Origin: Limnomonas spitsbergensis | Lineage: Eukaryota; Chlorophyta; Chlorophyceae; Chlamydomonadales | Assembly (NCBI GenBank): GCA_037349105.1 | Contig: JAYJMM010000119.1 | Coordinates: 2,429,001 to 2,493,000, forward strand | DNA: 64,000 nt | Direction of reading: 5' to 3' | Shown here: in pieces, positions 1 to 26,960 of the stretch | Numbering within the stretch: position 1 is the stretch's first letter | How the letters are laid out: each line of letters starts with the position of its first letter | Position numbers and translations under genes: made by a program | Notes under the pieces: model-generated | Told to the model about the DNA's origin: nothing | The model's database searches: none | Seen by the model: the letters and a program-made list of their open reading frames with translations, nothing else

Positions 1-2063
1 TTCCTCAAGCTCTGGGTCCACAGCCATTGACATTTTTGCTGTTAAAAAGCAGGTTTCGGCAGGTTCATGGTTAGCATGGTCCCCAGTAGCATCTGCCAGG
101 AGCACTCCAGCTCAGGTTCGAGGGTGAGATTTCAGAGCTGGCCAGGGAATTCAGAGATGTAGCTAGCGTTATGTCCACCAACCTCTACCGACCTTTCTGT
201 ATTTGCTCGCTTTGTGACCAGGGTGGTCTGCGCGTTCATCCTAGAATTCGAAGTCAAATCAGCAATGTTATTAACGTGACAAGGGCTGACCGGAAAGCAT
301 GTATCAATGCGAGATGGATCAATCCAATTTGCTGAGTGAATCAGCCGATGTTTCTCGTGTACAGAATACGGGTCTGCGCGACTTTCGCAGCTGCGGATCC
401 CGACAGACGACGGAAGAGCCGAAAATCTCGGAGACCTGACATCATGCGCACCTTCCTTACTTGTAACAATTAAAAGCTCTCTCATATCAATCATTTGGAA
501 ATCGCTGGAATATTTTGAGCTTCGGTAGGCCACACCGTTTCCTGGAGTGTGTTTCAGCTTGGTTCCAGCTGAAATTCTTCGTTAGCTGGTGCGGTACGCC
601 ATGCAGCTTGCTTACTTGGCCAACGGTCATTGACCTATGTAAGGTTATATTTATATAACAAGGAGGGGTCCGAACGTACGGTCTGGGGCAAACTTTCCCA
701 AATGGAAAAGTTTGGAAAAGTTCATGTTTTCCTCTGAGGCAGCCCCGACTTTTCAAGGTCAAGTCTTGTGTATCCCAGTTTGACCTGTTCAACAGCCTGC
801 AAAATACGGTACTTTGAAGCGAAGCCTAGCCACATCCAAGCCTTGGCAATATTTTCTTATTGACGGCTGAAACAATTGTGTCAGTTCAAGGGAGCATCAT
901 AAGCGATACTTGGGAGTTGGGAAAAGTGCCCACAGGACTAATTTAGTAATTTGGGCACACAAAGTATGCTTCAGGGTAGCAAGCCCACCCAAATGTGCCC
1001 CCTCTTCCACCCTGGCAAAAACATAGCAAACAGCTGATGTCCTCATATGGAAAATGTAGGCAGGCTGATTATTTGTTCCAAATTAGAACAAGCAGCTATT
1101 GTGCAAGAGGCTGCACTCAAGCAATCCGCCCTGTGACCAAGGCCTTTATTTGTCATCCAGCAAAAGTGCAACTCGTCCACCAACTTATGCAGCTCCATCA
1201 TAATCAACAAGCCAGGATCCAGCCATACGGCAACGACAACTCAAGAAAACCGGACACCTGAAGAACCATCTAGGCAGCATGAGTTGTAACAACCAACAAA
1301 CCACACACTGAAGACATTGCTGAAATGCCACACATACTGTATATATTTCTTCCCTCCAGATTCTTAAGCACAGTACTCAGCAATTTCAGCCACCACTCCG
1401 GGTCAGCCAGTAACTTCACTGTTATCGGCAAGACACTGTGCCCCTAGACATAGCGCACAGAACAACACGTCAATACAAGACGCCTCTACACCAGGCATGA
1501 GTCGCACAGCATAGCACTAGGCCTCCAAGTCTCTCAGGCTACCCTGTCAGCAGGCTCCACATGTTTGGAATGGTGCATGAGTGCATGACCGCTGGGCCCT
1601 GCTTAGGAACCGCCCCATGAATGGCTCCACATGTGAGTAAGACACAACAAGCAGGATACTGGGACCATTTACTCCACGGCACCAAGCCGCCGAGTCCATT
1701 TGGCTACACAGTCAGCAGGATCCACATGAATAATACACACCATGTAATACACCTGCATCATGAACTCCATGTCTGCTCAAGACTGTCTCAACACCTCAGC
1801 ATCATGCCCCAGCTGAGAGCCGCGCAACAGTCTCAAGCACACCTCTTTCCAGCTCTACACCATGCGCTACAGAGCAAAGCACCGGAGTCCAGGGCAGCAT
1901 CTTCCCTGTGAGGCAGCTAAGATTATAGATGTCATCGATGTTGCCGATTAACCAGACGCAAGTCACACCGTAGGGGTGGCTCAACCTCCTGGGAGGTCAA
2001 TACCCCGGGGCAGTACGTGCAGTACAGGTGCGCAACAGCCATGTTTCAGCCAAGCTGTTGCAG
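1..2063. other. No gene recognised; left edge of window
   Basis: Several open frames of 60-130 codons exist on both strands, but none shows a recognisable domain, consistent splice borders or codon bias. An AT-rich stretch near 640-660 could be promoter-like, without further support. The segment lies downstream of the stop codon of the minus-strand repeat-protein gene, so its right end may hold that gene's 3' UTR. Confidence 0.4.
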
Positions 2064-5000
2064 CTACCTCCAGTCCTCGAAATCCTCCTCGTCAGTCGAC
2101 TCCCGAGACTCCGGGTCCTCTGGGTCCCTCCAGCTCACAGCCTCCTGGCCCCACCTGTGCAAGGCACCCTTCATAGACGAGCAATGCTTCTTGCTGGTGG
2201 TGTCCAACGCCTCGTAGGCCTGCCAGTCAGTAACGGCAGAATAGAGGGCAAAGAAGTCATCCAAAAACTCACGTTGCGTGCTGTACACATTGCATGCTGT
2301 ACAGTTTATACCTCAAGTGCTGCTGTACATATTTCGCACTAAACTGGTTGCATGCTGCTGTTCAGAAAGAAAGAAAGCTACGCCCAGTGGGTGGGGGGCG
2401 TGAGAATCAAGGAAAAGCGCAGCCTGGGCCGAAGCCACATCCGAGCCGTTATCGTGCTGCTGTTCATGTTGCACGCTGTACAAGCTGCATGCTGCAAATG
2501 TTGCATGTTGTACATATTGCATGCTGTACATGTAATGCGTGCGTTGCGTGCTCTTCACAGTACATGCTGTACATGTTGCATGCTGCTTTACACCTGTGCT
2601 GGCATGCTGCACAGGTTGCAAGCTGTTCACGCCGCATGCTGTACACGTCATGTGCTGCTGTACATGTTGCGTGCTGTACTACGAGTAAACAAAAATGAGC
2701 TCTGGAGATCTGAAATCGGAACACGTCCTATCATGATTTCAGCATCAGGGCTTCGCGGCACTGATGCGCCTTCAGTCCTGAGATTTACTACAGATCTCTC
2801 TACATGATTGGTGTGACAACTGACAACAATCCTGACTACATATGGTCTTCCATCTGATGTTTAGCCATCTTCTGGGTTGACATTTCACACTTCATGCAGA
2901 GGGGCATCCAAACATTTACTCGTCACGTACACAATCCACTCCCTCTTTCAAATTCAAATTGCACCCACCAAGCACTGAACCCTCCAGGCCGCATGCTGCA
3001 GCCGCGCCAGATTGCGTGTGTAAGTCACCCCTTGATACAAACAAAGGGCAATAATGCACCCATACTTGTACTTGCCTAACCCAGTGTTTGGCTCCGACAC
3101 CCTAAAAGGGACTCTGATGTAACAAAGGATGTGACACAGTAAAACAGTGATACTCTGACTGAATATCCATAAAATTCTCGTGACACTTGCCCACCGTCAC
3201 GGCCGTGAATTACCCAACCCTGGCCTTGCCTTGGCCTAGCCTGGCCTGGCCTTGGCCTGGCCTTGTTACCCAACCCAACCCTGGCCTGCCCTGGCCTTGT
3301 TACACAAAAAGAGCACTAGCACACCCATACTTTCCCTGCCCCTTGAATCTTACTTGGGGCACTGTTAGGTTACCAGCACTAGATATACTTGCCTAGCTAT
3401 GTCCTATGTATCTTACTCAGTGGCTCAGTTACATCTCGGCCACATCTCATCTGCATCCAAGCTACATTTCAGTAACATATTAGCGGCCTCCTAGCCCTCA
3501 GCCCGAGGCCCCATGCAAACGCAGCCTGATGCTTGGGCCGTTGGCAGTAGGCCGGTCGAGGTTAGGCCCCAATTGGGCTCAAGGTTGGCTCGTAGCTGGG
3601 AATGAGAAACTGGGTATTAGCCAAGGCCACTGCCATGCCAATACTGGGTATTAGCCAAGGCCACTGCCATGCCAAAACTGACCTTTCCGAATTCCGAAAA
3701 TGCAATCCTTTGCAGCTCAGCGTCGGGAGCAACAGGCCGATGTTGACCGTGACCGCTCACATATCGGTGCCAGTGATGCAGGGCGCCCTTCTTTCCAGCG
3801 CAGGCTTCACACAAGCAGGCGAGGGCAAACACAGTCAATGCTGTAGAACAAAAACCGTGTGAAAACAGGCTGTGCGTTTACAGGCTGTGCATCAGTGGCT
3901 AAAAGGCCACAGCAGACATGCAATTACGCTGTTTACCCAAAATCTTTTGTCCATATGAAGGAAGGGGGCACAGGTTACTATTGATTTTATTCAAGACAGG
4001 GCATGAGAGCCAGTGGTGAATTACATTCAGCTGAGTAAGATAGACAGAGTCAAGCATGCACTCACTCAGCTTCTCCTTCTGATTCAGCTCCGTGTAGCCC
4101 TGTAGGGAAAAATAATGAAGAATCAGAGATGGAGGCAGCAGTGGGTGCAATTGTTGCGTCAGCCAGCATCGTGCGTGCGGTTGTTAGTAAAAATGAAAAC
4201 ATGTGCCCTGGGGTGAGGAACTTAGGATTGAACTGAGGGTCACCCAAAGACGTATGTCAATGCATGCGTCGTCGTGGCAGTCATAGAGGGTAACAAAGAG
4301 TGTCGTGGCTGTCACAGAGCAAATAAATAGTATCGTGGCTGTCATAGAGGGTAATAAAGAGTGTCAGTGCTGTCATAAGAGGGAAATAAAGAGTGTCGGG
4401 GCTGTCATAAGAGGGTAATAAAGCGTGCCCCTTGTCAATCTCATGGAGGGTCATACAGAGTGCATACAAAAACATCAGTATATCGAAAAACAACCACCTG
4501 GTCTGAACTCTTGTCTACCTGCTGTTTGCCCTGTCAGGGGATGGATACACAGCCAGCTATAATCAAGGCTACCTGGCGGGTTGTCCAGCCAGTGTCTAGG
4601 CAAGCTGGTTGAACACAAGCCACGGTGGTTGCTTCAGCAAAAGTTTTGGATGCTTCAGCTACAGTTTGGGATGCTTCAGCTACAATTTGGGATGCTTCAG
4701 CTACAGTTTGGGATGCTTCAGCTACAGTTTATGATGCTTCAGCTACAGTTTATGATGCTTCAGCTACAGTTTAGGATGCTTCAGCTACAGTTTAGGATGC
4801 TTCCATAAGCCTGGTATGAACCCTACAACCAAAATGCTTCAGCTGGTAAGCATCCAACACCCAGCCAGCCACCCATACTGGAAAGCAGCCCACGCCTAGG
4901 GTTTCTGATGGGAAACAACTTACACAAACTTGATGGGAACTTCATGCCATCACCAACAAGTAAAAACGCAAGGTTGTTTAGTGATTCAGGCCCTGAACCC

Positions 5001-8000
5001 TGAAACCTTCGCCCAGACCAGAGGCCTCCACTATACAGACTGGAAGGTCCCACGACCTCCTTCATGCCCTTCATGAGCCTGCCGTACTAAACAGCAGGCA
5101 GTGTGCCCTGTACTTGCCTTGCCGTACTCAACCTGAAAGGGTCGCGTGAAACAAACACCGTCATGAGTGGGAGTAAGATCAAATGTCCTAGGCACTTGGA
5201 TCTCAGCAACAATCCATGTGGGACTTCGCAATTGGTGCTTTTGCATGTTCTCTTCACCCAACAGTGCCATTTACTGTGTCAGGGTGCAGTTTACTGTGTC
5301 ATTGTTGCTTGGCCGTACCTGCGCGATGGCCTCCAGATCCGGTTCCGGGAAGTGGGGCACATGCACGTGACCCTCCCACTGGTGCAGGGCCCCCTTGGTC
5401 CCAGCGCAGCCTAAACACACGGCAAGGCATGAAACGGTTTATAAAATGGCCAACGAAAACTTGGGAGGTGGACTCGCTGAATAATACTCACACTGCACCG
5501 CTGAAGTTATGACAAAGGCAGCAGCTGAGAATATCCGTAGCATGTGCTCATGTGCACACAGACACAGCTCACACAATTGATGCATGTGGCCCATGAGGTT
5601 GGCTGTTGCCACTTGCCACGAGATGTGTCAGACATGCTCTTTATGCTTGGGTAGCAAATAGCGAGTGAATGAGCAAGCAAGAATACTACACCCGACAGGA
5701 GCGTGGGGGTCAGGAAACAATGCAGCTTGGGGCCAAAAGCTTTGGATTGCAGCCAGGAAAAGATGGATGCCATTTCAATGTCGCCTCTTAAATATGCATA
5801 CATGCCATCATCCATGCCTATGATATGATCGACGGGGATGCCACTTAAAGCCATCCAGTTAGAACTTACTTTTCTTTTCGTGAAGACTCAGCTCAGCGTA
5901 CATCTGTGGGGATCAAGAAATGCAGTGGGAACAAATGCAGCTGTTTCCGTAATCAAGTGTTCAAACAGTTCAAGGTGTGCGATCACCTCAGGTAGCTTAC
6001 CCAGTTTGTGTGCCTAGCTAGCTGAGGTGCTCATCAGGCAATGTTGATGACAAGATGCTTGTATGTAATGAGATGTGGACATAAGGCAGCACCTTTCATC
6101 ATCATAGAACGAGAGCTTTCGTACTTTGAAGGGCGCCATACCACCCTAGCCAGGTATGTGTCACTTTGGCGGCTTAGGTAGCTGCTGTAACTTACCTGAA
6201 GATATAACACGGGCATACATGTGACTGGACGTATGTCAGTAACAGTCCCCGATAATAGTTATGAGTCCAATGGATCGTTACCCGTTGTATAGCGAGACTT
6301 GCCTTGCCAAACTTCTCCTGCGCAGGGTGGGTGGGAACCAGTGTAAATTCGTTTTGCTGGTGTGTGGCTGTCCAAGACAGAAAGAATACTCCACCGAGGG
6401 TCGGTGGTGTGATGGCTTATATTGTTTGGGGGACAAACGGGTAAGCGGCAACTTATTCATCCCATCCATAGGATGAAACATATCTACCAGGACAACAGGA
6501 CAATTGCATGCAAGTCACCCTAGCTGGGTGCCTGCACTGCCTGGCGAATTCATGTCCCCCATCCAACGAAAACCACATTTTTTTATCGATCTGGAGGTCA
6601 TGTGAGCAATCAACTTCTGGGCAAGGATTGCCAAAGGAAGCTCGCATATCAGTTTTCCCCTGTGCCAGACCAGTAGACCATATTTGGGGGGCTGCCAGAA
6701 GGCCAACACTGGGCCAGGGGGGACGCACCTTGACCGACCTACGGCCAGAGGCCCAGATGGCTGGGCTTGCCGTACCAAGCCCCCCCTGCCATAGGCCATG
6801 ATGTAGCTATATTATTGAAGCTAAAGCCCCCTCAAAATGTGCACTCCCTTTATAGACCAACGGGCGACAATCGCTCATTACCTTAGCGATTCCTTCCATC
6901 TCATCATCCGCAGAATGTGGCGGCACATGGACATGGCCAGCCCAGTGGTGCATGGCTCCCTTCTTCCCGGCACAGGCTGCACACATAAATTTGAGCGCAA
7001 GCACTTTCTCACACGGCACTAAAAGGCACACATCACTCATACGCACACGAAGAGCCAATAAGCCAGGGAAACAAGGCTTCATCGGGCTCATGCTATTGAT
7101 TATAAAGATTGAGATCAGGTACTGAAGGTAAGGATGGGAGTAGAGATCCCAGTTGTTTCCATGAAAACGCGTGCCTGAGGTCAGCCACAGTCTTCCAGAC
7201 GGATTAGCCAGGCATGCACTCACTCAGCTTTTCCTTGTGATCCAGCTCCGCATAGCCCTACAGGGAAATACGTTAAGCACACATAAATGATGGTAGCAGA
7301 CAGAAATACCCTTTTTGCACTTTAATGCACTGTTGCGCCCAGCCACCGAGTCAGTGAGGCCCTGCAGGACAAACCCATGATTAGACGCTACGCAGCAGTG
7401 CGGAAATAGTATGGACACAAGAAGCACGGCTTTAGTGTGGATATAAGTAGCACTATGGTGTGAACATAAGGAGAATGGCAATAGTGTGGACATGCGCTAG
7501 ATTTTCAGCACAACCTAATGTGAAAAAATGGACTTGAGCCACGTACGCACAACATCCACACTAGACGGCTCTCACGAGTGCAAGTTAGCCCCTCATGCGC
7601 ACAAGTGAGAGTGCTAATTTACTGGATTATCAGTTCTTGCCTTTCCGAATTCCTCCAAAGCAATGCTCTCAAGCTCAGCATCAGGATCAGCTTGCTTGCT
7701 CACATGCCCTTGCCAGTGAAGCAGGGCGCTCTTCTTCCCAGCACAGCCTGTGCACGCACACACAAGAATGCACCTGTCATGCTGCGGATGTCATATTCGC
7801 CCCTCCTTTCATGCAAACCTCCTCTACAGAGGGCTGCAAGTTCAGAAAGTGCACGCACACACGGGAATGGAAACGCGCAATGGTTTAAATAGAAAACGGC
7901 CTAAAAGCCAGTATTTAACGAGGCATCAGCAGACATGCAATCAAACCATCTGCCTGGTACACCGTTTGGGGATGATCAGGTACTGTTATTCAAAATAAGG

Positions 8001-11000
8001 GCGGAGTCATAGATAGTAGATGCTTTCAAGATATCTCATGTGGCCCAATGCAGGGGGTGATTTGCAGTGCAGCACTGAGGCACGCTGGATAGATAGCCGG
8101 GCATGCACTTACTCAGCTTTTCCTTGTGATCCAGCTCTGTGTATCCCTGTAGAAAACAGAGGTTTGAATTTTGGAAACGAAAAGAAGGGGACGAAACACA
8201 ATATAAGGATACGGCACTGCGCCCCAGCAGTTCCGTGTTTTGCTATTGGTCACGGCCTTACAGCAGACGACACAGCAGCGTGTATATACGGGGGCGTGAT
8301 AGCAGCTGACAAAGTGGTCAAGTTCTTGGAAGTGATGACTCCGGGTTGGGTCCCCGGTGCGTTTAAGGGGTAGCAGATCCATGCATGGATAAAAAGGGGT
8401 GGGAAAGAATGGATGGAGGGATGAAAAAACGGATCCATGCATGAATATAGGGGGTTCAAAAGGAAGGATGAATGGATGAGATGAGGCATTGTAATCAATG
8501 GCGCTTAATGCCCGCCTGTAGATGGAAATAAGGAAGGGAAATATTCCAGGAGCCAGCATGAAGAAAGGCTAAAAAGCTATGTCAAGGAAAAGTAATGGAC
8601 ATGTGCATGCGCCTTGAGGCGTGTGCTGAAGGAGCCCATCATGTTGGCCGCAGAATGGTTTGTGGCAAGCACGGGATAAGAACATGCCACCGACGAACCT
8701 GGACACTGCTTGGCAAGACCCGTACCATTGGCTTGGAAAGACCCTTCCCATTAGCATGCAACTAAAATCTGAGTAACCTTAAACAGCCAGCTCCACTAGA
8801 GAAGCAAGTATTAATCACACTCGCGTCTGCATTCTGCACAGCAATGGTTGGTATAGGTAGGCCTGTGCCCTGTACCCTGTACCCTCAATAGCAACCTCGG
8901 CAACTTAAACTGGAATGCCCTGCGCCCTTGTCATGAGCCTGTTGGCAACCTTGGCGTCTTCTACTTGCCTTGCGGTATTCCACCTGGAGCATCCAGTGAA
9001 ACAGATGGAAGCATCAACAGGAGGAAAGAAAAAATAAAACTACGCCCCGCAGGGGCGTGAGGGTTAAGGAATGAGCGCTGCATGGGCCTGGGCCGCGTCC
9101 ACGCCGTTACCATCAGTCACCATCAGCCGTTACCATCAGTCAACAGGAGGAAGATAACACTCTTTAGGCAAGTAGGTCACATGACAGGCAATTGGTTTCT
9201 GTTTTGGTTCATGTCGCTGATTTCTCCCTGGCTTGCTCTGTCTGTCCCTTTGTAAAAGGCTGTGGGTGGTTGCCTAAACATTGTAACGGCAAGCATTGTT
9301 TAGCAACAAACATGGCCATGAAAGCTGTTCGGCTTTCGTTTGCTGGACTCTTAAGTATACAGCGTCAGGGTGCGTGTGGCTTGGCCGTACCTGCGCGATG
9401 GCCTCCAGCTCCGGGTCAGGGAGATGGGGCACATGCACGTGACCCTCCCACTGGTGCAGAGCGCCCTCGACCCCTGCTATCCCAGCACATCCTGAGGGAC
9501 AAGACACATGACAGATCGGGATGCGGCTAGGGAAAGGAAGGTTCAGGAAGGGAGGTAGACTCATAACTATCTAACTAATAAAAGATACTCGTGCACTGCT
9601 GATGTTGGCGGCAACCGTTGAGGTGGGTCATTTGCAGACCCCTCCTCCCCCACCCTCCACACACCCACAGTTTTGACAACTGAAGCATGCAACTAACCCC
9701 GGGATCATCATGTGAGATGTTTCAGGCTGGACCTGTAGCTTTTGGTGGCACGGAGGGTTGGAATAACTGTAAATGCACCCATGAAACTATGCAGTGTTGA
9801 TCTTGTCGTTGCTCGACAACCGTTCAGCTTAAGCTCGTCCACCTAGGGCCTCCATCCTGGAGCCTCATGCACGACCTGCCATGCTGCTAAGGCAATTTTT
9901 GTCCGAACCTGGCTATACGAGGCCAAGGGACAGCCCGCCTCAGTAGCCTCATAACCTCAACAAATAACGGAAATGACGTGTTAAGCACCCATTCCTAAAT
10001 GCATACCGATAAACCTAAAAAGAATGGAGATGTCAATTAAGGCGTTTAGGGTAATCAGTCCTTATATAAGGCTTTAGGATGGTAGCTACTCTAGCTAATC
10101 TCTGGCTAGAAGGGGGGATATGAGAGATGCTTTAGCTATCCTGTTCGGACTTACTCAGCTTATCGTGAAGCATGAGCTCGGCGTACGCCTGTTGGGCATC
10201 ATCAACATTGATTATTTTGAACAGCTGTCTCATCATATGTTCAGTTCGTTGAAGATGTACATTTTAGCAAGCTAGCTCATGTATCATGTGGAGCTAACTG
10301 ACCATTGAAGCTGCCGGTACCAGGTGAAGCTCATATATAACCAGGTAGCAATATGCAGTGAGATGGCACTCAAGTTGGTAACATGACATCTTGCTTAGCT
10401 GAGGAGAGCTGGGGGCGATTTAAAAGCTTTTTGTTACACGGGGCAAATTTAAGTCAGGTTCTCTGCCGAGGAGGCTGCTGAAAATGAGCATCTGGACCTC
10501 ACTATGATGCACGTCACTCTGCCGTGCACCAAGTGCATGGCTGGCTGAGTGTTGGAGACAGTAGGGAATACAACCAATTGTTACCGGGGTGTACACTCAG
10601 ACGGACTTGCCTTGCCATAGATTTCCTACGCACAGTGGGTGGTCAGCAGGGCACCCAATCATCGTCAATTCACTGCGTGACGCTGCTTCATTGAGTGCAT
10701 GGGGCGCTATCAACAAGTGCATGTCAGCCAGAACACTTGATTGATGAGTGGTCAAAGCTTTAGGTAGGAAATAATATGTGCATGCTAAACAAAGCAACCC
10801 AGCTGGCCCAGGGAAGTCCTGGCCACCTCGCAACACTGCTAACATGACTTCCTGCATTTTGATTGGCGGCAACGGGAGCAAGCAGGTTTCCATGCATGGC
10901 AGGGGCACAAAGGGAAGCACGAAATCCCTGGCGGCAGGCGGCAGGAAGCAACCAACACTAGGGGTGACGAGGATGAATCCTTATAAATGGCGTTGCGCTA

Positions 11001-12298
11001 CACAGTGCCCCCCCCCCCTCCCTAAACTGACAGGCTGTACGATGCGTGGATGCCTAAATATTGTATGTCCCAAAACCCATAAAGCGTTCACCACTTGATC
11101 ATGGCCCAGCATCTGCAGTACCTGAGCAATGCCATCCAGCTCATCCTCAGCCACATGAGACGGCACATGCACATGGCCAGACCAGTGGTGCATGGCCCCC
11201 TTCTTTCCAATGCAGCCTTCATGCACAAATGAGGAGAGGCAGCAGTTGAAGAATGCATGTGAGGACACAAGTCTGATGCACGTCGGGACCCACATGGGCT
11301 CTAAAAATGGAAGTATGAAAAGGCATTCATCATACCAGCTTGATGAGCGGGGCAGCAATGACGGGCAACGGAGCGGATTTTGTTTGCTTAGGGTTTAGGA
11401 CAGGGTGTGGGAGGTCGGGGTAGGGCGCAGGGAGTATTGGGGGCAGAGCAAAGGGTCTATGGCGAATGTGTGCCTCATGATGAGGGCATCTGTCTGCATT
11501 CCTGATTCCGGTCTTGCCCTGACATCATGGCTTGAGAAGAAGAAGAAGAAGAAGAAAGAAAACTATGTCCCTCAGGGGCGTGAGGGTTAAGGAAACAACG
11601 CGGCATGGGCCTAGGCCGCGTCCGCGCCGTTACCATGCATGGCATATCATGGCAAATCCTATTCTAGATGCTGGTACGTAAATTGCCAGGTACACTTTCA
11701 GACAGTCACAGCCCATGCAATGGAGTAACAACAATAGGTAAGCGCACGGGTTTGAAGCAGAGTGGGTAGTATTTCCAGGACCCCAGTCGATAAAAAACAT
11801 AGCCAAGTTGTGGCCAGCTTGTTTAATTTTGCCTGTGTGTGTGGTACCTATTTTGCCTGTGTGTGTGGTACCTATTTTGCCTGTGTGTGTGGTACCTATT
11901 TTGAGGTATTATCACACACAGGAAAACGAAAACTGCAGAGTCACTGTGTGGTTCACTCAGGATGACCTCGCCTGCTGGCAACATATTCATTATTTCAATG
12001 CCAGGCGATATGAATTCAAACATTGGGGCACTACTCACTCCTCTTCTGCTCGATAGGAAGATCAGCGTAGGCCTGAAATAAAACAGACATAAGGCAAGGC
12101 AAGGATGTCAAGCATAATGACTTGAATCAAACATTGGGAATTGCCGGCATCAAGAGGGGCAAATACGTAGCCCAGCCACAAGGCATGCTATAATTACCCT
12201 GCCAAAATTTAGTTGCGCAATCCTGTCCAGCTCTGGATCCCCCCCGTGGACATCTTGGTCGCCGGGCTTTGTCTTGAACCTGGCCACAGTGAGGCACC
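2064..12298 (-). CDS. Unrecognised repeat protein from reiterated exon sets (seven ~48-aa repeats)
   Basis: The protein family is not recognised. Exons, 5' to 3' on the minus strand: 12298-12198, 12072-12039, 11216-11122, 10625-10611, 10188-10155, 9491-9391, 8983-8969, 8146-8113, 7747-7641, 7257-7224, 6976-6882, 6317-6303, 5903-5870, 5410-5319, 5132-5118, 4099-4066, 3804-3683 and 2219-2064 (stop TAG). All phases join. Each repeat is a 34-nt exon B (like YAELDHKEKL), an exon A of 92-101 nt (like CAGKKGAMHHW then GHVHVP, ending in ELEGIAK) and a 15-nt exon C (like VEYGK). In repeats 3 and 6, A and C are fused; repeat 7 is one exon ending in an acidic tail. Cys, Gly/Ser-Ala-Leu/Met and Trp are the most constant residues. 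Cys and several His suggest metal binding, which is only a guess. The first exon listed is divergent; start codon and earlier exons were not found. Confidence 0.8.
2364..2455 (+). repeat. ~90-bp dispersed repeat, copy 1
   Basis: A GAAA-rich lead is followed by CTACGCCC, a GGCGTGAGAATCAAGG-like core, CTGGGCC and an end like CCGAGCCGTTA. Related copies lie at about 9021-9114 (+), 11534-11635 (+) and 56665-56755 (-). Read the other way it has a GC-rich body and a TTTC-rich tail, as SINE or LINE 3' ends can. Origin unknown. Confidence 0.65.
2454..2690. repeat. Degenerate GCATGCTGTACA-type repeat
   Basis: Variants of TGCATGCTGTACATGTTGCA recur many times without a strict period. The local ORFs rich in CC, AC and HATC motifs come from this low-complexity DNA and are not genes. 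It lies in the last intron of the minus-strand repeat gene. Confidence 0.7.
3215..3302. repeat. CCTGGCCTTG-type short tandem repeat
   Basis: About eight imperfect units of CCTGGCCTTG or close variants, with interspersed TTACCCAACC. It is inside the long last intron of the minus-strand repeat gene. Confidence 0.7.
3609..3676. repeat. 34-bp direct repeat, two copies
   Basis: Two nearly identical adjacent 34-bp units, each containing GGGTATTAGCCAAGGCCACT. They begin just downstream (minus sense) of the donor of exon 3804-3683. Confidence 0.75.
4264..4430. repeat. ~33-bp minisatellite, about five units
   Basis: Units resemble GTGGCTGTCATAGAGGGTAA followed by TAAAGAGTGTC. Intronic in the repeat gene. 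Confidence 0.75.
4641..4805. repeat. 21-bp minisatellite, about eight units
   Basis: The unit is GATGCTTCAGCTACAGTTT plus two variable bases. Because 21 is a multiple of three, it gives an artificial open frame of MLQLQFG repeats. It is intronic, and no splice or start context supports translation. Confidence 0.85.
5118..5132 (-). CDS. 15-nt microexon C5 (VEYGK) of the repeat gene
   Basis: The acceptor is CCTTTCAG and the donor AAG|GCAAGTAC (GC-AG class). It lies between exon A5 (5410-5319) and exon B6 (4099-4066), and phases fit. Confidence 0.8.
6303..6317 (-). CDS. 15-nt microexon C4 (EKFGK) of the repeat gene
   Basis: The acceptor is CTGCGCAG and the donor AAG|GCAAGTCT (GC-AG class). It lies between exon A4 (6976-6882) and exon B5 (5903-5870), and phases fit. 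Confidence 0.8.
8969..8983 (-). CDS. 15-nt microexon C2 (VEYRK) of the repeat gene
   Basis: The acceptor is CTCCAG and the donor AAG|GCAAGTAG (GC-AG class). Phase 0 on both sides, between exon A2 (9491-9391) and exon B3 (8146-8113). Confidence 0.8.
9021..9114 (+). repeat. ~90-bp dispersed repeat, copy 2
   Basis: Same order as copy 1: GAAAGAAA-like lead, CTACGCCCC, GGGGCGTGAGGGTTAAGG, GGGCCTGGGCCGCGTCC and GCCGTTACCAT. Intronic in the minus-strand repeat gene. Confidence 0.7.
10611..10625 (-). CDS. 15-nt microexon C1 (EIYGK) of the repeat gene
   Basis: On the minus strand the acceptor ends in GTAG and the donor reads AAG|GCAAGTCC, a GC-AG intron border. The five residues occupy the position that reads EEFGK, SEFGK or LNFGR inside the fused exons of other repeats. 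Phase 0 on both sides. Confidence 0.8.
11534..11635 (+). repeat. ~90-bp dispersed repeat, copy 3
   Basis: A (GAA)n lead, CTATGTCCCTC, GGGGCGTGAGGGTTAAGG, GGGCCTAGGCCGCGTCC and GCGCCGTTACCAT. It is the copy closest to copy 2. Intronic in the minus-strand repeat gene. Confidence 0.7.
11826..11903. repeat. 24-bp tandem repeat, three units
   Basis: Three identical units built on GCCTGTGTGTGTGGTACCTA. Intronic in the repeat gene, between the 34-nt exon ending at 12039 and the exon starting at 11216. Confidence 0.85.
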
Positions 12299-13689
12299 CT
12301 CGGGTGTCTGCAGCAGCCCATGTTACGGGCGTCGGAGATCCATGGGGTGTGAGATGAGCCCGAGGCGGAGTGACCCGCTGATGTGGTGGGAGCCAGCATG
12401 CTCCACTGATGCTGACGGCTCTCGAAAAGGCCGTTGGATTGCGTTGAGGAGCTGCCAGGGCTGGGCAAGAGGCAAGCTTGCTTGCTGCTGGCTGGATGCA
12501 CCTGCTCAGCAAAATCAGCCAGAAGGTGTGTGTGAGTGGTAGCAGCACACTCGATTTGATTCTATACATCAAAATATGGTTAATCAAAGAGCCAGAAAGG
12601 ACAGTCGGGAGCTGAGACGGGAGGGTGATCTGGGACCTAGAACGTGAACTTCACTGAGCGATCAAAGCATCAAACTGGGCAAAAGCAGAGGGTGACGACA
12701 GACAGAACCTGGTGGGGACTACTGAGTAGTGCACTGATGATACTGCCCACAGTCCCACACTGCTCGGTAGCATGTCCGTTAATGACAGGCCTTGGTCAGA
12801 TTCCGAAAAATAACAGAGGCTGCACTTATTTTTCCGAACAGATGGCTCGAGCTTACCTGTTTCTGGCACAGACCTTCATCATGGCGGAAAAATTGGTGAC
12901 AGGGAATTACCGGGACTGATGTCGTAATACCGGGAAATGCGGAAATGCCCGGCGGAAAATACAGATGTCTTTCTTGATGAGAGATAAGCAAAAGGTCAGC
13001 GGTAACACGGCTGTCTAGCTCTACCCATTGGTGCACGGGAACGTTCTTCCTTCACAACATGAGTCAGCATTCGGTTGGAGTCTTGGAGGATGAACCGAAC
13101 AATGCGTTAGGTTTCCGTTTGAGTGGTCGGTTGGCAGCTTGCTTCAGGAGCTTGCTAGGTTCGGTCCTCATGTCTCAGTTGATACTTATGCATTCATTTC
13201 GTGCCGCACGCCACTCGACCAGTCAAGTCTCGACCTGTTTACAACCCACGAAGAATGCAAACTGCAGCCCAAGCTGCGGCTTTCATTGCCGCAACCCCCT
13301 GCCGCAACCCCCTGCCCAAACACGCACTGGCAGTGCCCATACCTGCAAAAATTTGGAGTACGGTATGCGCTCCCGTGAAAGAGAAGGTAAGGGAGCAGGG
13401 GTAGGCAGGTTCTCCGGACGACACCACGTAATTTTACCTGTTATACCAAGGGCAGACATGGGCGGGAGGCCCTGGCTTTTGAGGAGAATGTGGTCGTGCT
13501 TCTTGATGAGGCCTTGACTCTTGTTAGATGCATGGTAGCTGGAATTGAGCCTAGTCATTCCCTACCAGCCCCACGTGGCCGAGCGTCAGCAGGGCCCAGC
13601 GGGTATGTACTGTTCTAATCTTGTTAGATGGGCTGCCTTCCCTTTGGGGGTTTGGGGTTGTTTGGGGCGGGCTTTTCCGTATGTTTCCC
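12299..13689. other. No gene resolved between repeat gene and LINE relic
   Basis: The 5' exons and promoter of the minus-strand repeat gene should lie here or further right, but no start codon with a matching donor could be chosen. A minus-strand open stretch around 12300-12587 continues the frame of the first assigned exon and could hold its true 5' part. Other open frames on both strands show no family signature. Confidence 0.35.
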
Positions 13690-14966
13690 GTATGTTAAGT
13701 AAAGTTTTTACAGTCCAACGGGGCATCACATTTGATGCATGGGACTTGTGCCCGTAAACCGGTACAGGCACTAAACATGTTTCCTCTTTCTTCCTCCTCC
13801 CCTTTCTTACTATCATCTTCCAATGAGACAGATGGACGCCGACGTGGCAGAGTCTATGTTTGAGCAGGACCCACAAGTCAATAACGGTAAACCTCTGGGC
13901 CCGCTCAAAGCTCGGCCGCGTGGGCACCCAACTGTTCAGAAGGGAGAAAAGAAGACACTAAAAGGAAGAGGGGGGGACAGGAACGAAAGGAGAGGCCGGG
14001 AAGGCAGAGAAGACCAAGTCTGACACCTGACTTCCACAAGAGACTATCCCTCAACAAAGCCTACGAAAAAAGAAAAGTCCACAAAAGCAAGCGTATCCCA
14101 CCCATGCTTGGCCGCGAGGGCGCCCCACTGCATCAGAAGGGAGAAGAGAAGAAACTAAAAAGGGGGCAAACAACAACAAAAAGAAAGGACCAAAAGGGAA
14201 GGCCAGAAAGGCAAACGACACCGGCGCCTCAGAATCCCTGGAGACTAATCCTCAATAATGCCCACAGCACAGTCCACAAAAGCAAGTGCATCCCACCCCT
14301 GCTCAGCCTGGTACAGCTGGTGAAAGTTAGTGGCAGCGCCCTGAGGACCTGCCCACCCCCGCTCTCGTAACTGCTCCCTGACACTAGGGCACTGGAAGCA
14401 CACATGTAGCGCATCCTCCAGAACTCCACCTGCTCGCTATCCCCCTGTGCCCAACATTGCTGGCAGCAGCGTGCCTCTCGCCGCTGACCATTGCGCGGTC
14501 CTCTGGTATCAGCCGCGCTGATCGCGAGCCGCAGTCGCAGATTTATGCGCACACAAGCACAATCCCTTTGGTTAGTGCGGCTCTTGGCTTGCACCAGCAC
14601 GGCACCCGCCGTGGACTGGAACCAGGCGCGGTAGGTCGCCGCAGATCTGTGCTCGGTGGTAGGGTCCCTGGGGTACCCACCGCCGCTGGCGTACAGCCGT
14701 GTTTGCTCGTAGGCTGCGTCAACGAGTGCCAACACCTCTGTGACGGGTAGGCGATGTAGGGCAGCTGCTGCCTCGCGCAAGGTGGGGGTGGCTGTCCCCC
14801 GCTCCCGCTCCTCTAATGCACCCAGCAGATCAGAGCACCAGGTGCGGCCGCCAGTGCCCTGGCTGACTGCAAGCTGCATATCTGCTGCCATGGCTTGAGC
14901 CATGAGAGGGCTGTATAGCTGTGCCGCCGGTGCCACCGCTGCATTGTAGAAGCGGAGGGCCCACAA
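13690..14966 (-). mobile_element. Decayed LINE 3' end with 3' UTR (GC-rich family)
   Basis: A minus-strand frame of 245 codons (14966-14229) carries a C-terminal zinc-knuckle beginning CCQQCWAQG. The frame then shifts near 14420. The alternative frame continues with ALHVCFQCP and ends in AVGIIED plus a stop near 14247, as expected for the Cys-Cys-His-Cys end of non-LTR retrotransposon reverse transcriptases. Downstream lies a 3' UTR ending with the tail also carried by the LINE at 21.2-25.1 kb. The upstream reverse transcriptase core is missing or not recognisable, so this is a 5'-truncated, frameshifted copy. Higher GC and different coding sequence show that it belongs to a different family from the 21-kb element. 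Confidence 0.65.
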
Positions 14967-16364
14967 GTGTAACGTCCTTGACCCTCACAGGCTCATGCCA
15001 ATCTTTTTGTATACCCGTGTGGTCGCTCACCCGTGGCCAACCATCTGTGGTAGGCGGCCTGCTCCTTGGAGATGTCAGTGGGGGAGGGAAGCGCTTAGTA
15101 ATTCCGGCGGGCTGCAAGGGCTGCAGCGAGTGCCGAAGACGGGTCCACAACATCATCAAGAGTCTCGAAGGCGGCAGAGAGGGTGGCTTGGGCCGCCTCC
15201 CGGGCCGCCGACAATGTGGCGGCGGTGGCGGCCACCAAGCTAGGGGGGCAAGGGCATCTATGAGTGCAGTGCGTGCATGCTTGTGCAGTAATGTGAACTC
15301 GTATGCATGTGTGCATGCATGCGTGTCATCCCCTGGTGTGGCGTGCAGAGACATCTACATTGCGCCCCAGCAGGATACCTCCGTTTTTAGCTCAGAAAGC
15401 CCTTGGATTTGAGAGGGGGTTCACTGGATCGCTCGACGCATTGGCAGCCTTGCGAGAAATGAAATGGGGGGAGAACAAGTCGTCTAGCGTTTTAAGCTAA
15501 ACTAGAGGACCGTGTGTGATATATCACAAATATGGGCAGATTTTGAACTTCTCGTTTAGCTTTCCTAGTGGTCCGCCTTGCCGGGTAGGGGACAAGGGGA
15601 GCAGGAATGCCCTGGTCTGGCCTAGTTAATAGATACAAGGCTGTACTAAATACTTCAAGGTTCCACCTTTTACAGCACTTCAGCAAATTTGAATGTTCAG
15701 TGGATAAATAACACTGTCGGGCCTATGCAGATGCTGAAGCGTGCTTTGCTAGGTCGCTCTGCTTGACATTCGCAATTTGTAATGCATTAGCTTGGAACTA
15801 CAACTGGAGGGTCTGGTTACGGTATGTTGCCAGCCGGGCGGTGGGGCACTGTCAGTCAGCCAGTTGGATTGTTGGAATGAGCATGGAGAAATGGAGAAAA
15901 GGCTTCTCATGGCAGGTTTGCAGAAGTTGAAGTCATCAGTTGCATAAAGACAAACATATGACATAATCTGAAGTGCTTATGTCAGAGAGTTGCATGCCGG
16001 ATAGTTACGTGAAGTAGACTGGTCGGGGAAATCGGTATTGGTGTCCTGATTTCGGAAAATGCGAAGATTTACTTGTTTTTGATTGCGTGAGAAGCAAAAG
16101 GTGAGGCTCGCGGCCACAATGCTGTGCAGATCATAGAAGAAGCAGGGCGTTCTGAGTCGAAACATTTCCTCAAAAAACAAATCAGCGATCGCGTACGAGA
16201 TCGCGAATGCAATTAAATCAGGCCTTTGGGTTCAGATTTGCTTGGTCGGCCCTGGTTGGAGGTTCTCACTCTCCAGGTCACACTATCACGGCTATTGCAC
16301 GCCACACAGCGCTCAGCCGGCCACTAGACAAGTCGCGTCTTCAGATCGTCCGACCACACACAAA
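14967..16364. other. No gene recognised
   Basis: Open frames at 14830-15354 (-) and 14921-15412 (+) overlap each other in GC-rich sequence and show no family motifs. Part may be further LINE relic upstream of the element at 13.7-15.0 kb. The last 200 bases should hold the promoter and 5' UTR of the plus-strand gene starting near 16365; no clear TATA box was chosen. Confidence 0.35.
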
Positions 16365-21156: not shown

Positions 21157-24100
21157 CGGGTAACCCGTAAACCGGTTAATGCTACGGCTTATAGAGAGAG
21201 GAAGGGTTTGAGGGTGCTGAGCTGGAACATAGGGGGGCATCTTAGCACAATGCACCTGAGCCTTGATTTTCAGAAGATATGGGAAAAAGCAGACTTAATC
21301 ATTTTGTCTCACACCGGTCATTGCGTCTCTGATGTTGTACCTGACCTATCTGGTTTCGTATGTGTCTCTTGCAGTGCACGGACTTACGATGCACGGTCGG
21401 GTGGAGTTGCGGTCTATGCTAGGCAGCCTCTTTTGGTGTCCTTATTGCAGGATTCCCCTTCATATGGAATGACCTGGGTTAGAATTCCGGCCTGCAATCT
21501 GTATGTTTGTGCGTGTTACCTGCCTCATGGGAATTCTTCCTATTTCAAACATGAAAATGGCCGGTTGGATGCTGCGGCTCACTATGATTTTCTTAGAGAA
21601 TCAGTTTCCAAATTTTCTGCGCTGGGGGAGGTTGTGATCTCAGGGGACTTGAACGCTAGGACTGCATGTGTGGATGATCGCTGCGACATCATAGACATGC
21701 AAGAATGGGAGGGTATGGGCGCAGCCAATTTGCCAATTCCGTGTGACGCCATTAATTTGCATGCGTGTGCGCGCGCTGTCCCGCCTGGACATAATGAGGA
21801 CGGGGTGGTTAATCCTAATGGGAAAAAATTGATAGAGATGTGCAAAGATCAAGGTCTGGTTATCCTGAATGGAAGGTTGCCTGGGGATATTGAAGGTACT
21901 TTTACCTATTTCCAACATGGCAAGAATGCTGGTGCTTGCAGTGTCATTGACTATTTCATATCAACCCCGTCCCTTATTTTTGATATGACAGGGGCCATCA
22001 AGCCTGGATGTGATATGCAGGTATCTCAATGTGCCTGTACCCCTGCACGTGCTGATGGGGGTAGGTTTGACCATGTTCCTATTTTCCTTACTGTTAGCCG
22101 GCCCGCCTTGGAGCCAACCGCGTTTGCTAGGAGGGAAAAAGGAACCTTGCAGGGAAACGATGTGACTATGAAGCAGGCTCGTGACGTAGTTTACAGATGG
22201 AACCCGGATAGTAGGGACTTTTACGTTACAAATTTATGTACGTCTGCCTCGGTGGCAGAACATTTTGGAGCCATGTATCACCTTTCTGCATCAGTGCATG
22301 AAGTCTCCCAACACTTTAGCCGCGCTATTGAGTGTGCCCTTATGGATTTACATAGATCGCAGGGTAAAGTTGCTTGCTATCCCAACGAGTCTAAAGTTAT
22401 CAAGCAGGATAGGCCTTGCAATACTTGGTATGATGACCGGTGCAAAGCTGCTAGGAAAACTTGTTTAGTGGCTGCCCAGTTTTGGGGTGCTGGTTCAGGA
22501 GAGGTTAAGTTGGCCATTAGGGAATATCGACGTATAACTCAGGCTATCAAGCGTGAATGGGAGGGTGTACGAGCAGCGGATCTACTGTCAGATCTTCGGT
22601 GCCAGCCTAAGAATTTTTGGTCGGCTTATGGCAGTAACAGGAAGATCAGCCCCCTCACAGATGTGGGGGATTGGACTGAATACTTTAAAAAGCTGTTTGA
22701 ACCTTCAGAGCATGTGCCTTGCCACAAAGCTGGGGATGAGACTATTCAGGCGTGTTTATTTCCTCTTCCTTTAGAAGTTCATCTTTCTCAAGCAGAGCAC
22801 CTAAATTGTGTTTTTACGGAAGCCGAGATTGTGAAAGCTTTGGAAAAGACTGTGAATGGAAAGTCTGCGGGTGTTGATGGTGTCCCTATGGAGTTTTTGA
22901 AACACGCGGTTATTGTGACTCCTAGGGGAGCTTTTTCTCAAGAGAAGCGGCAGTATGTTTTGGCAAATCAAATTACGTTTTTGTTTAATAGAGTTTTGGC
23001 AGACGGTTACCCTAAGGAGTGGGGCATCGGAGCACTCGTTCCGGTACCCAAGCCAAAGGGCAGTCCTGCAATCAAAGACGATTATAGGGGTATTGCCGTC
23101 GGAACTGCCCTATCCAAATTATATTCCCTCGTCTTATTGCAACGCCTTGATTCTTGGGCAGAAAGTCAGGGTTTCAGAGCCGATGGCCAGGCAGGTTTTC
23201 GGCATGGACGGGGAACACCTGATAATGCTTTCATTCTAAACCACATTATTGAAAAATACCATTTGGAGAAAAAAACGATTTTTGCTGCTTTCATTGATTT
23301 TAGGAAGGCATATGACTGCATTGACAGAGATTTATTGTGGCGAAGTTTACAGAGCATGGGTGTGCACGGCCGGATTTTAGAAAGTTTGAAGGAGATGTAT
23401 CAGGATGTAAAAATCCGTGTACGGGTTGGTGGTAAACTGGGAGATAGTTTCTCCTCCTTTATGGGTGTTAAACAAGGAGACCCGCTGTCCCCTCTATTGT
23501 TTGGCCTGTTTATCGACCGTTTCGAGAAGTTTGTCGCAAGTGAGTGCCCTGATATTGGCGCCCGTCTTTCACATGCTTTGGTCAGAGTTTTACTTTATGC
23601 TGATGATCTGGTGTTATTCGCTGAATCGCCGGATGATCTGCAAAAACTTCTTGATGCTCTCCATATTTTTTGTCGCCACAATGCCTTGACAGTCAATATA
23701 AAAAAATCTGAAGCAGTTGTTTTTAACCAGAAATATTGTAGTCATTTGGCATCTCTGTCTTATGACGGAAGCGTTCTTGATATTAAGCCCTTTTTCATCT
23801 ACTTGGGTATGTTATTTGATGAGGCAGAGGGTATGAAGGGAGCAGGTAGACGTCATCTTTTTGACTCTTTAGTGAAGCCTATTCTGTTTTATGGGTGTGA
23901 AATTTGAGGACCAGGTCTCCTTGCGAAAGGAGTCGGCTTGACAGATACTGGTTTCTCTAGAGATTTGGAGGTAATTCACAAGGGTTTCCTTAGGCAGTGT
24001 CTGGGTCTTCGCAAGTCTGTGGCCGAGTATGTTCTCATGAGTGAACTGCACCGTGAACCCCTTATCTTAAGTCTTTTTCAGCAGACCCTGAGTTTTTGGA

Positions 24101-25088
24101 ATAGAATTAATCTGAGGCCTGACAATGACCTTGTGAAAATGGCTATGCAGGAAAGTTGTGATTTGGCGAAGGCTGGCACTTCACTTTGTTGGGCTGGTTT
24201 TCTGTCTACGATATTGATGACTCTGGGTATTGATTTATTGACTGCATCAGCCAATACCTCTTTGGATATTGAGGTCATTGTGAATTCAGCTAGGGATCAG
24301 TGGCTTTCCAAAATTTCCAGGGACATGCCACGTACGGCCATGTCAGTACGTGCTACTCCTGACTCAGAACGCTCGGGGTTCAAATTGTTTATGTTCTCTA
24401 AGTGGTTCCAAATTAAGCGTGATGTGCAGGAGACTTTCTGGTACAATTTGAGTAAGCCTAATATTATTTTTGCTGTAGCCCGGTATCGGATGGGGTCGCA
24501 TTGGCTGAATGTTGAGACGGGGCGCTTTGAGAAACCCTGTGTGCCTCGTAGCGAGAGGATTTGTAGATGTTGCAATCTTAAATGTCGGGAGGATGAGCTT
24601 CACATGATTTACTGCCCGTTCTATACAGACCTTCGTTTTCAGTTTAACCTTACTTTCCATAATTTCCTAGAGGACGAGGATGAGGCCATGAAACGGTACG
24701 CAAATGGAGTGTGGGGCAAACTTAATGCAGCGGATTCTGCATATGTGTTCTGGAAGAAATTTGGTTGTTTAATCTTTCAGTGTATGATGAAAAGAGAGAA
24801 TCATCTCAAAACTCTGCCAAAATTCCTGTCTCCCCCCTAACTCTCTAGGCGGTGCTCAATCGAACTCTTTTGCACCCACGTCATGTTTTATGGCTGGGGC
24901 TTATCTTCTGCACTATGGGGTTCATTCCCACGCCACTGTCGTGGTTGTGTGCTAGTTGCTTGCCCAGGGGGGTCACTGGTTTTCGCTTTCTGTCCTAGTG
25001 TATCAAGTGCCTGTACCGGTTTACGGGCACATGTCCCATGCATCAATTGTGATGCTCTGTTGGACTGTAAAAACTTCACAGTGTCCCC
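21157..25088 (+). mobile_element. Near-intact LINE (non-LTR retrotransposon)
   Basis: The element has one long frame coding an apurinic-like endonuclease and a reverse transcriptase, followed by a ~240-bp 3' UTR. The 3' UTR ends in a tail with two potential hairpins: GTGCCTGTA pairing with TACGGGCAC, and GCATCA pairing with TGATGC. The same tail ends three other elements in the window. The 5' untranslated part contains CCCGTAAACCGGT, the exact reverse complement of ACCGGTTTACGGG in the tail. No separate ORF1 was seen, and no poly(A) or target-site duplication was identified. Outer limits are approximate. Confidence 0.85.
21208..24840 (+). pseudogene. LINE endonuclease/reverse transcriptase ORF with one in-frame TGA
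   Basis: A single frame of 1,210 codons, broken only by TGA at 23905-23907. N-terminal exonuclease-endonuclease-phosphatase domain: LSWNIGG at the start, GDLNAR around residue 146, SVIDYF, and RFDHVPI near its end. Reverse transcriptase: YRGIAVGTALSKLYS, QAGFRHGRGTPDNAF, FIDFRKAYDCIDRDLLW (motif A), GVKQGDPLSPLLFGLF (motif B) and LLYADDLVLF (motif C, YADD at residues 797-800). The C-terminal part (after 23938) carries a Cys-Cys-Cys-His-Cys cluster, ICRCCNLKC then ELHMIYCP. The stop falls in YGCEI-stop-G, where LINE proteins usually have Trp, so TGG to TGA is the simplest reading. No ATG precedes the endonuclease motif in frame; TTG at 21208 is only the first open near-start codon, and the first ATG is at 21250. 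Confidence 0.9.
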
Positions 25089-25235: not shown

Positions 25236-26960
25236 CTATGAACCACATGAGCTGTCCAGTCGGGATGGGCAGCCAACTGCATGCGTCGGCAAACCACATG
25301 AAGCATGAGGGCTTGCACGGTAACAGTTGCAGAGCTTGTCCAGGATACGCAGAATATACAAGAACTGCAATTAAGGGCGAACACAGGGTAGGGCACTTAA
25401 GTTGACTGTGGCGAGCACATCTCGGTATGTGTAACATGCTGGAAACATATGTATGCACAGTTTAAGCCGGAGGACGCACCTGGAATGCGGGCACAACCTG
25501 AGACAATGGAAATAAATTTGACGCCATGGGGCATGCAATCCCAAAGGCCCTCGATGGGCCTTGACCACCTCCAGCACGGTATAGGTACATTATGCTGACA
25601 GCAGCGCAGGCTGCCCAAGAGAAAGAAGGAAAGCGTGCCCATATTGCTTTGAGGGCCCATATTGCTGGGCCCATATTGCTGGGCCCATATTGCTTGGGCC
25701 CATTTCGCTTGAGCCCAGATTGCTGTAAATAATTTTGAGCCCATGTAGCTCACCAGGTTAATGATGTCCAGGTACATGTTGATTGCAGCAAAGACATCCT
25801 CATCAGGCGAAACCTTGCACCGGTGATGGCCTCCCATCAGCATCTGGACATCATATACGATGTACCTGCACGGTGGAGAAAGAGCATGCAGGGGGTATGG
25901 TACTTAAACATGAGGAGCACGTGGAGGTTGAAATGCACACCGAGGGAATTGTGGGGGTTGACTTTCTACACTTCTTAGGTGCTATCCCCCTCAGCAGTCT
26001 CTCATCGGTAGGAGATTAGGAGTTCAGGAAAAGGAGCGCATGCAGCCTACTTTTCAGAGAAAAGTAAGGGCTACGATGAGACTCTCTACAATGGTTTGTG
26101 ATATTCAGATCTGGTGATATTCTAGGCGGCATGTGCCATGAAACTTATGTCAGCCTGTTTGCCCGGTGGACGGTCAGACAGGTCTTTGAATTAAAAATCC
26201 CGCATGCCATGCATAAAATGAGTCCCAGTATGACTGTTGCCCAGGGGAGGCGAGCTGCAGTACTGAAATGGATGCTGAGGCAGGCTTCTGCTCACATGGC
26301 CTGCTCCTCCTGGCTCCTGTGCTGACTGCCAGCGTCAGCAGCGGAGTCTGCGGCATGAAGCCCACACCCCCTGCCGCAAACAGAGACAGCAGCGCAGCGT
26401 ACAGGTAACAGGCATGCCTGTGAAGTCACTCTTGGTTGTCAGGGCATAGGCACATAGCGCAGTAGTGACGCCAGCGGTGATGCCCAGGGCAAGCAGCACA
26501 ATATCGGTGTCGTATCTCGATGTGCATGCTCCAACCAGGATGCCCTCGCCAACGGTGAACACAGCCATGAGGATCATATTCAAAGGAAACTGGTGCCGCG
26601 CCTTCTCCGACACCGCGAGGTGGATTAGCGGGCCAAAGGACATGGCAAACGCGAGCAGCAGGACTAATCCATTGGTCACAACAGCGGCCTTGATGCTGGC
26701 GGAACAGACAATGGCAGCTCCGATGACCACTGCCACTACTAGCTGAACCGCCAGTAGACCTGGGAAATATTTTCGAATTCGTTCGGTCGCAGGTTACACC
26801 AGGGGAGACGCGCAAATGGATAGCCATTTTTGGTTTTGTGGGCCTTGGACTCACCAAACACCTTCCTGATGAACCCTTGCCGAACAATTGTATCTGCAAA
26901 TTCATTAGCTACTCTGCCCTTTTCCAAGTCGTCTATGGAGACTCCAGCGTCACCTTCGAC
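25236..26960 (-). pseudogene. Lifeguard/TMBIM (BAX inhibitor-1 superfamily) gene, apparently broken
   Basis: Minus-strand exons code pieces of a multi-pass Lifeguard-type protein, a family of ER or Golgi membrane calcium-leak and cell-death regulators. Exon ~26960-26855 ends FIRKVFG and joins in phase to exon 26759-~26410 (LLAVQLVVAVVIGAAIV, FPLNMILMAVFTVGEG, YALTTKSDFTG). Immediately after, the expected YAALLSLFAAGGVGFMP continues in another frame, implying one missing base near 26410. Exon 25865-25754 carries YIVYDVQMLMGGHHR and FAAINMYLDIINL. The last exon, 25364-25236, starts FLYILRILDKLC and ends in an unusual 30-residue tail. The segment expected between GFMP and YIVYD and the start codon were not found; a stop precedes the first exon in frame. 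Either a pseudogene or a locus with a sequence error and a missed exon. Confidence 0.7.
25640..25735. repeat. GGGCCCATATTGCT short tandem repeat
   Basis: Five or six units of about 15 bp with point variants. Intronic in the TMBIM-like gene, between its last two exons. Confidence 0.75.

Follow-up and report, generated by a model that had tools for sequence, protein, structure and literature searches.

The window (the whole 64-kb stretch of DNA analysed here, C119:2429001-2493000) carries a repeat-protein gene, gene 1, on its minus strand from 12882 to 2064. The gene comprises 19 exons, located by placing reading frames and splice sites after window positions 1-16000 had been read, and its predicted product is 453 amino acids long. 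Six exons of 34 nt and four microexons of 15 nt recur among them with phases 0/1/0. All 18 modelled introns start with GT or GC and end with AG in the sequence, and the frame is kept from exon 2 to the stop codon, with AG acceptors and GT/GC donors at every join. Relatives were sought in the source genome (260 Mb, 124 contigs), and three further genes with the same exon set were found. Taken together, the gene structure and its history very probably describe one functional, many-exon repeat-protein gene that has been expanded in blocks.

The exons of gene 1, all on the minus strand and numbered by window position, are as follows. Exon 1 (26 nt, 12857-12882, encoding MMKVCARN(R)) carries a putative start codon. 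It is an ATG exon with a GT donor and a phase that fits exon 2, and gene 2 has a similarly located 23-nt ATG exon; it is less certain than the other exons, though a consistent choice for the start. Exon 2 (304 nt, 12198-12501) encodes an Ala/Pro/Ser-rich N-terminus and the first half of unit 1, and ends with ...DPELDRIAQLNFGR. Its acceptor at 12501, ctgagcag/GTGCATC (the slash marks the exon border), is common to genes 1 and 2. The first-pass annotation had placed the upstream border of the locus at 12298, which falls within exon 2; exons 1 and 2 extend the locus to 12882. The R2 cycle consists of the 34-nt exon R2A (12039-12072, AYADLPIEQKR), the 95-nt exon R2B (11122-11216) and the microexon R2C (10611-10625, EIYGK, GC donor). 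The R3 cycle has the 34-nt R3A (10155-10188), the 101-nt R3B (9391-9491) and the microexon VEYRK (8969-8983, GC donor). R4A (34 nt, 8113-8146) is followed by the 107-nt R4B (7641-7747), which contains the microexon sequence EEFGK in fused form and has a GC donor. R5A (34 nt, 7224-7257), R5B (95 nt, 6882-6976) and the microexon R5C (6303-6317, EKFGK, GC donor) come next, followed by R6A (34 nt, 5870-5903), R6B (92 nt, 5319-5410) and the microexon R6C (5118-5132, VEYGK, GC donor). R7A (34 nt, 4066-4099) precedes the 122-nt R7B (3683-3804), with the fused microexon sequence SEFGK and a GT donor. The terminal exon (2064-2219) encodes a fused A+B half unit, an acidic tail (...STDEEDFEDWR), similar to that of gene 2, and the stop codon.

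The coding cycle thus consists of exon A of 34 nt (phase 0 to 1), exon B of 92-101 nt (phase 1 to 0) and exon C of 15 nt (phase 0 to 0). Where exon B is fused to the microexon sequence, in two of the six cycles, it measures 107 or 122 nt. Because the exon set adds up to a multiple of three and its phases repeat as 0/1/0, recombination in introns could add whole units in frame. The six complete cycles of gene 1 encode 48, 50, 47, 48, 47 and 52 residues. The seven repeats of 47-52 residues described earlier are therefore right in length, but what we find is six complete A-B-C cycles plus a leading and a trailing half, and the count of seven is valid only if hairpins spanning exon joins are counted. 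Similarly, the phases 0, 1, 0 do recur in every repeat as had been claimed, but the exons are not always the same, since the microexon is fused to exon B in the two cycles mentioned. Among the 15 units aligned from genes 1-4, the Cys said to be invariant is indeed kept in all; the Trp, said to be equally invariant, is present in 11.

Each unit is predicted, with low to moderate confidence and from pieces of it, to fold as an alpha-hairpin. For the contiguous fused B exon, AF2 placed helices at residues 4-16 and 28-38 (mean pLDDT 73.7, pTM 0.31, shallow alignment of 9 rows), and for the terminal exon a helix at residues 7-30 (pLDDT 65.8, pTM 0.34, shallow alignment of 4 rows). Helix 1 (D-x-E-L-x-x-I-A-x-x-x-F/Y-G-K-x-Y-x-x-L) would draw its residues from exon B, the microexon and exon A, and helix 2 (E-K-x-x-C-A-G-K-K-G-A-x-H-x-W) would straddle the join of exon A with the following exon B.

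When a single B exon was used as DNA query, a gene on contig C36 came up; protein searches with the consensus unit added more exons of that gene, and a later search led to a copy on contig C79. Genes 2, 3 and 4 keep the exon set of gene 1 and add four microexons, ERFGK, VEYSK and, twice, AEFGQ. Gene 2 (C36:2788535-2795929) was modelled from ATG to stop as 12 exons encoding 305 aa, with the 15-nt exons ERFGK and VEYSK. Gene 3 (C36 2797809-2800476, 299 aa) and gene 4 (C36, starting at 2801904) are two-unit relatives arranged in tandem, each with one 34-nt exon and one 15-nt exon, AEFGQ, and without the N-terminal extension. The end of gene 4 can be modelled in two ways, either with an extra GC-donor intron (2804767-2805238) before an acidic tail (314 aa) or by read-through to a stop codon (305 aa). 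The copy on C79, on the minus strand at about 201.0-195.9 kb, is apparently broken and resembles a mixture of two-unit and long-gene forms. The window from 2059 to 34619 shows collinear, inverted similarity to C36 2795934-2780835, with at least two other long gene-like matches, so that genes 1 and 2 appear to sit in an old duplicated segment. Sequence searches found no relative of genes 3 and 4 next to the window. A match on C112 (L013, E 0.002) was rejected because the matching part crosses an apparent splice site of an unrelated gene, which we take to be an M16-like peptidase. Weak further matches were seen on C35 (L027, E 0.48) and at four more places (E 0.06-0.47).

Several other elements lie in or around these genes. 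Two stretches on the minus strand of the window, 25744-26945 and 31268-32046, occur in the same order on C36, inverted, and one of them reads like a BAX-inhibitor-type membrane protein. A long plus-strand frame at 21157-24840 reads like a LINE-type endonuclease plus reverse transcriptase, which a single in-frame stop divides into 916 and 310 codons. Two introns of gene 1 contain copies of a dispersed repeat of about 88 nt (9026-9113 and 11549-11636, 88% alike), and the core of this repeat recurs near 2395; the 18-nt core has three matches in the window against 0.04 expected, and letters similar to the repeat were noticed by eye in L013 and C79. A second dispersed stretch, of about 70 nt and 78-93% identity, has at least two copies in the window (13697-13766 and 25012-25079) and three in the fetched C36 stretch (near 2788057, 2798659 and 2800954). 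In the intron that follows the VEYxK microexon, gene 1 has a 21-nt minisatellite (4630-4803) and gene 2 a different one, a 30-nt minisatellite that extends over about 1.2 kb (L015 3178-4407).

The four microexons that had been read from the sequence at first were all located with suitable splice sites at the positions given above, as were the intron-free equivalents LNFGR (in exon 2), EEFGK (in R4B) and SEFGK (in R7B). By sequence, four exons of gene 1 and eight of genes 1-4 are microexons of the plant type, i.e., internal coding exons of at most 15 nt between GT/GC-AG introns. A pattern was composed after these examples had been seen (AG, then 15 nt coding for [EVA]x[FY][GSR][KQ], then GT or GC), so a scan with it is a measure of specificity rather than a blind test. 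The pattern occurred once in each of the 8 target introns (9,977 nt in total) and in none of 19 control introns; the first intron of gene 1 was covered through the window scan only, and the last intron of gene 2 lay outside the scan. In the 64-kb window, on both strands, it matched exactly four times, each time at a predicted place. The splice dinucleotides alone say little, as each target intron contains 4 to 38 looser candidates, i.e., open stretches of 15 nt between AG and GT/GC. Blastn, which has no splice model, aligned window positions 5092-5138, 6296-6341 and 10565-10650 with gene 2, and these are microexon neighbourhoods; for the neighbourhood of VEYRK, no match of at least 40 nt was listed between the window and the fetched C36 stretch. 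Among the listed DNA matches to C36 (at least 40 nt, E up to 1e-4), every one that falls inside window positions 2059-12322 overlaps an exon. Copies that do not have the intron keep five equivalent residues (LNFGR/LNFGK, LDFGK, EEFGK, SEFGK and KEFGK). That related genes carry tiny exons of the same set supports the microexons as genuine.

The intron that follows the F/Y-G-K position is unusual in its donor. Of the 15 such introns in genes 1-4, 8 have a GC donor: gene 1 contributes 5 of its 7, gene 2 contributes 3 of its 4, and genes 3 and 4 together 0 of 4. Among the other modelled introns the figure is 0 of 22, or 1 of 23 with the doubtful last intron of gene 4 included. Six of the eight GC donors follow microexons, of which there are eight, and two follow fused exons. 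This excess, together with the fact that 15 nt is neutral to the frame, might point to cassette exons that are often skipped, whereby five optional residues would alter helix 1 and the switch would be copied with the repeats. We consider frequent skipping unlikely. The equivalent five residues are kept in the intron-free copies, so inclusion looks constitutive; two of the eight GC donors have no microexon before them; and all six microexon GC donors read gcaagt after AAG, which is a strong donor context. It is also unlikely that the module as a whole combines a protein repeat with a duplicated splice switch, each added unit bringing a frame-neutral 15-nt microexon with a GC-AG donor. By eye, the ends of R2C, R5C, R6C and the R2C of gene 2 read GGCAAG/GCAAGT, a short direct repeat, which places another potential GC donor five bases upstream. 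In the portions of PMC8831610 available to us, introns upstream of plant microexons are described as tending to splice late and those downstream first. A GC donor on the downstream intron may be relevant to that order of splicing.

The first-pass annotation had proposed a search with profile HMMs, and this returned no Pfam or NCBIfam family above the curated cut-offs. Against Pfam, the queries were gene 1 minus its N-terminus, genes 2 to 4, with the last part of gene 4 left off, and 15 individual units, and the best E was 0.085. Against NCBIfam, gene 2 alone was searched; its best match, PRK10040.1-2 (a hypothetical protein, E 0.00075), was set aside as too short, with 18 residues and 19.3 bits against a cut-off of 93. 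Among PDB sequences the best E was 0.36 for gene 1 and 0.097 for a profile of the 15 units, the latter for an entry called E8. A set of about 5.8 billion proteins was searched as well. The query from gene 1, again minus its N-terminus, yielded 3047 candidates, of which none had an E of 1 or below; gene 4, again with its last part left off, and genes 1 and 2 aligned to each other gave none at E up to 10 among the 7995 and 7996 best word-sharing candidates scored, respectively. These protein searches depend on shared 5-residue words and similar length, so that a distant or single-unit relative could be missed. As far as the databases searched extend, no homologue of these sequences came up outside the source genome, and they are best described as a new family.

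In the first 75 residues, genes 1 and 2 have 1 and 1 acidic residues, 8 and 7 basic residues, and 37 and 38 Ala/Ser/Thr/Pro residues, respectively, so by composition this region resembles a transit peptide. From this and from analogy we tentatively suggest an organelle-targeted helical scaffold: the long forms would be imported into an organelle, where they would serve as a helical-repeat scaffold, binding a partner through the conserved Cys/His/Trp face. A different use of that face, binding of a metal ion by a protein acting as metal store or carrier, seems improbable. The Cys present in all 15 units, the HHWxGHVHVP-like stretches in several of them and the 35 His and 12 Cys of the predicted gene 1 protein speak for it, but there is a single invariant Cys per unit, no recognised metal-site spacing and no family match, and the His positions differ among units. 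Less probable again is a very divergent HMG-box-like hairpin (helices 2-3) that binds DNA, for example in an organelle nucleoid. The unit spacing G-x-x-[YW]-x-x-L-[ST]-x-x-E-K does resemble the HMG-box motif, which together with the transit-like N-terminus of genes 1 and 2 is what speaks for this reading. However, the fit demands a shift of one residue per helix, no HMG-box helix 1 was seen, and no HMG box was listed by Pfam for gene 1 without its N-terminus, for genes 2-4 or for the 15 units. None of the 15 units matches any listed Pfam model at E up to 10 (the HMMER filters drop most matches above about 0.1), nor is an HMG box among the PDB matches listed at E up to 10 for the 15-unit profile.

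The exons appear to be under constraint. By Nei-Gojobori counts, dN/dS relative to gene 2 is 0.17 for block 1 of gene 1 (139 codons) and 0.14 for block 2 (128 codons), and between the two blocks of gene 1 it is 0.28 (128 codons). By exon class, it is 0.16 for the 34-nt A exons, 0.14 for the B exons, 0.13 for the first-unit exon and 0.26 for the terminal exon. Genes 3 and 4 compare at 0.29 (146 codons), and their 34-nt exon alone at 0.31 (11 codons). The microexons alone give 0.29, a weak figure because it draws on 30 pooled, non-independent codon comparisons. As judged from these counts, the exons together are evolving as constrained coding sequence. That gene 1 is instead a decaying duplicate whose exon order has merely been retained is most improbable: it does lie within an old duplicated segment, and the apparently broken C79 copy indicates that decay does happen among these relatives, but the modelled exons of genes 1 and 2 are free of stops and frame breaks, and dN/dS between corresponding exons is 0.14-0.17 at a dS of 0.68-0.90. 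The paralogues with the same exons and the purifying selection support the original reading of a repeat protein made by duplication of an exon set with 15-nt microexons.

The number of units differs among the genes, with two in genes 3 and 4, four in gene 2 and seven in gene 1, and corresponding units can be paired. The unit tree rests on 39 columns, and the strict threshold is attained by only 2 of its 12 inner branches. It joins unit 2 of gene 2 to units 2 and 5 of gene 1 (support 92/91), unit 3 of gene 2 to gene 1 units 3 and 6 (85/84), and unit 4 of gene 2 to gene 1 unit 7 (98/99). Unit 1 of gene 1 and unit 1 of gene 2 branch from a single fork, with 87% identity between them. Unit 4 of gene 1 has the appearance of a junction unit. 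When the whole predicted proteins of genes 1 and 2 are aligned, there is one internal gap of 145 residues, equal to three gene 1 units, besides small gaps near the N-terminus, in the linker and in the tail. Four DNA repeat pairs (D6, D7, D15 and D17), spaced 3,958-4,308 nt apart, agree with a three-unit block. The units of one block therefore pair by position with those of the other, as in block-duplicated domain repeats, with moderate tree support and R5A as the exception. R5A with its flank is R4A-like (90% over 61 nt against the R4A of gene 2) and not R2A-like. A single clean block duplication as the whole history is rejected on this ground, and at least two events are needed, e.g., one single-unit duplication and one unequal crossover, as might be proposed. 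Serial duplication, as the first-pass annotation put it, is thus correct in that exon sets were duplicated, but the process was not purely one of single units, gene 1 having an extra three-unit block in comparison with its four-unit sister.

Coding exons of this size are a known class: the available portions of PMC8831610 report 2,398 exons of 15 nt or smaller in 10 species, a green alga included, and describe such plant exons as often misannotated or missed. As in that account, the exons of gene 1 are coding, at most 15 nt long, placed within a conserved protein motif and probably easily missed by annotation. Unlike the plant microexons described there, they appear to have been multiplied together with a repeat unit and belong to a family with no homologue in the databases searched. 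In the schistosome micro-exon genes, according to the available portions of PMC4350168, the coding region is made up mostly of symmetrical exons of very small size; these genes have multiplied by duplication, and they encode fast-evolving proteins of the host-parasite interface. In contrast, the exons of gene 1 encode a conserved unit under purifying selection, and they are not mostly small and symmetrical: within the cycle, symmetry is confined to the 15-nt exon and the pair A+B, since the 34-nt exon A runs from phase 0 to 1 and exon B from phase 1 to 0. Domain-repeat proteins are known to grow by internal tandem duplication, in blocks of several domains (PMC1553488 and PMC8275333, as far as available). 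The units of gene 1 were likewise added by internal tandem duplication and in blocks, but whereas those repeats are of known domains, the unit of gene 1 matches no known domain and is interrupted by introns at as many as three positions, with a microexon among its exons. In the available portions of the literature on microexons with repeats, exon duplication or algae, no co-multiplication of microexon and repeat was noticed, which is not proof of absence. The architecture is best described as a known kind in an unusual combination and in a new family. Since the family matches nothing in the databases searched, automatic annotation probably misses or mis-models the gene.

Gene 1 and its relatives offer a clear case of microexons that were apparently copied along with a protein repeat. 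The presence of both intron-bearing and intron-free copies makes the microexon reading checkable from the genome sequence alone, and the genes of two, four and seven units preserve a record of the growth of such a repeat. That GC donors are in excess at one intron position raises a testable question about how microexons are spliced. If the doubtful reading of a duplicated splice switch were true, helix 1 could be tunable in each unit that has a microexon, by inclusion of that microexon, and many variants of a repeat scaffold could be made from one gene.
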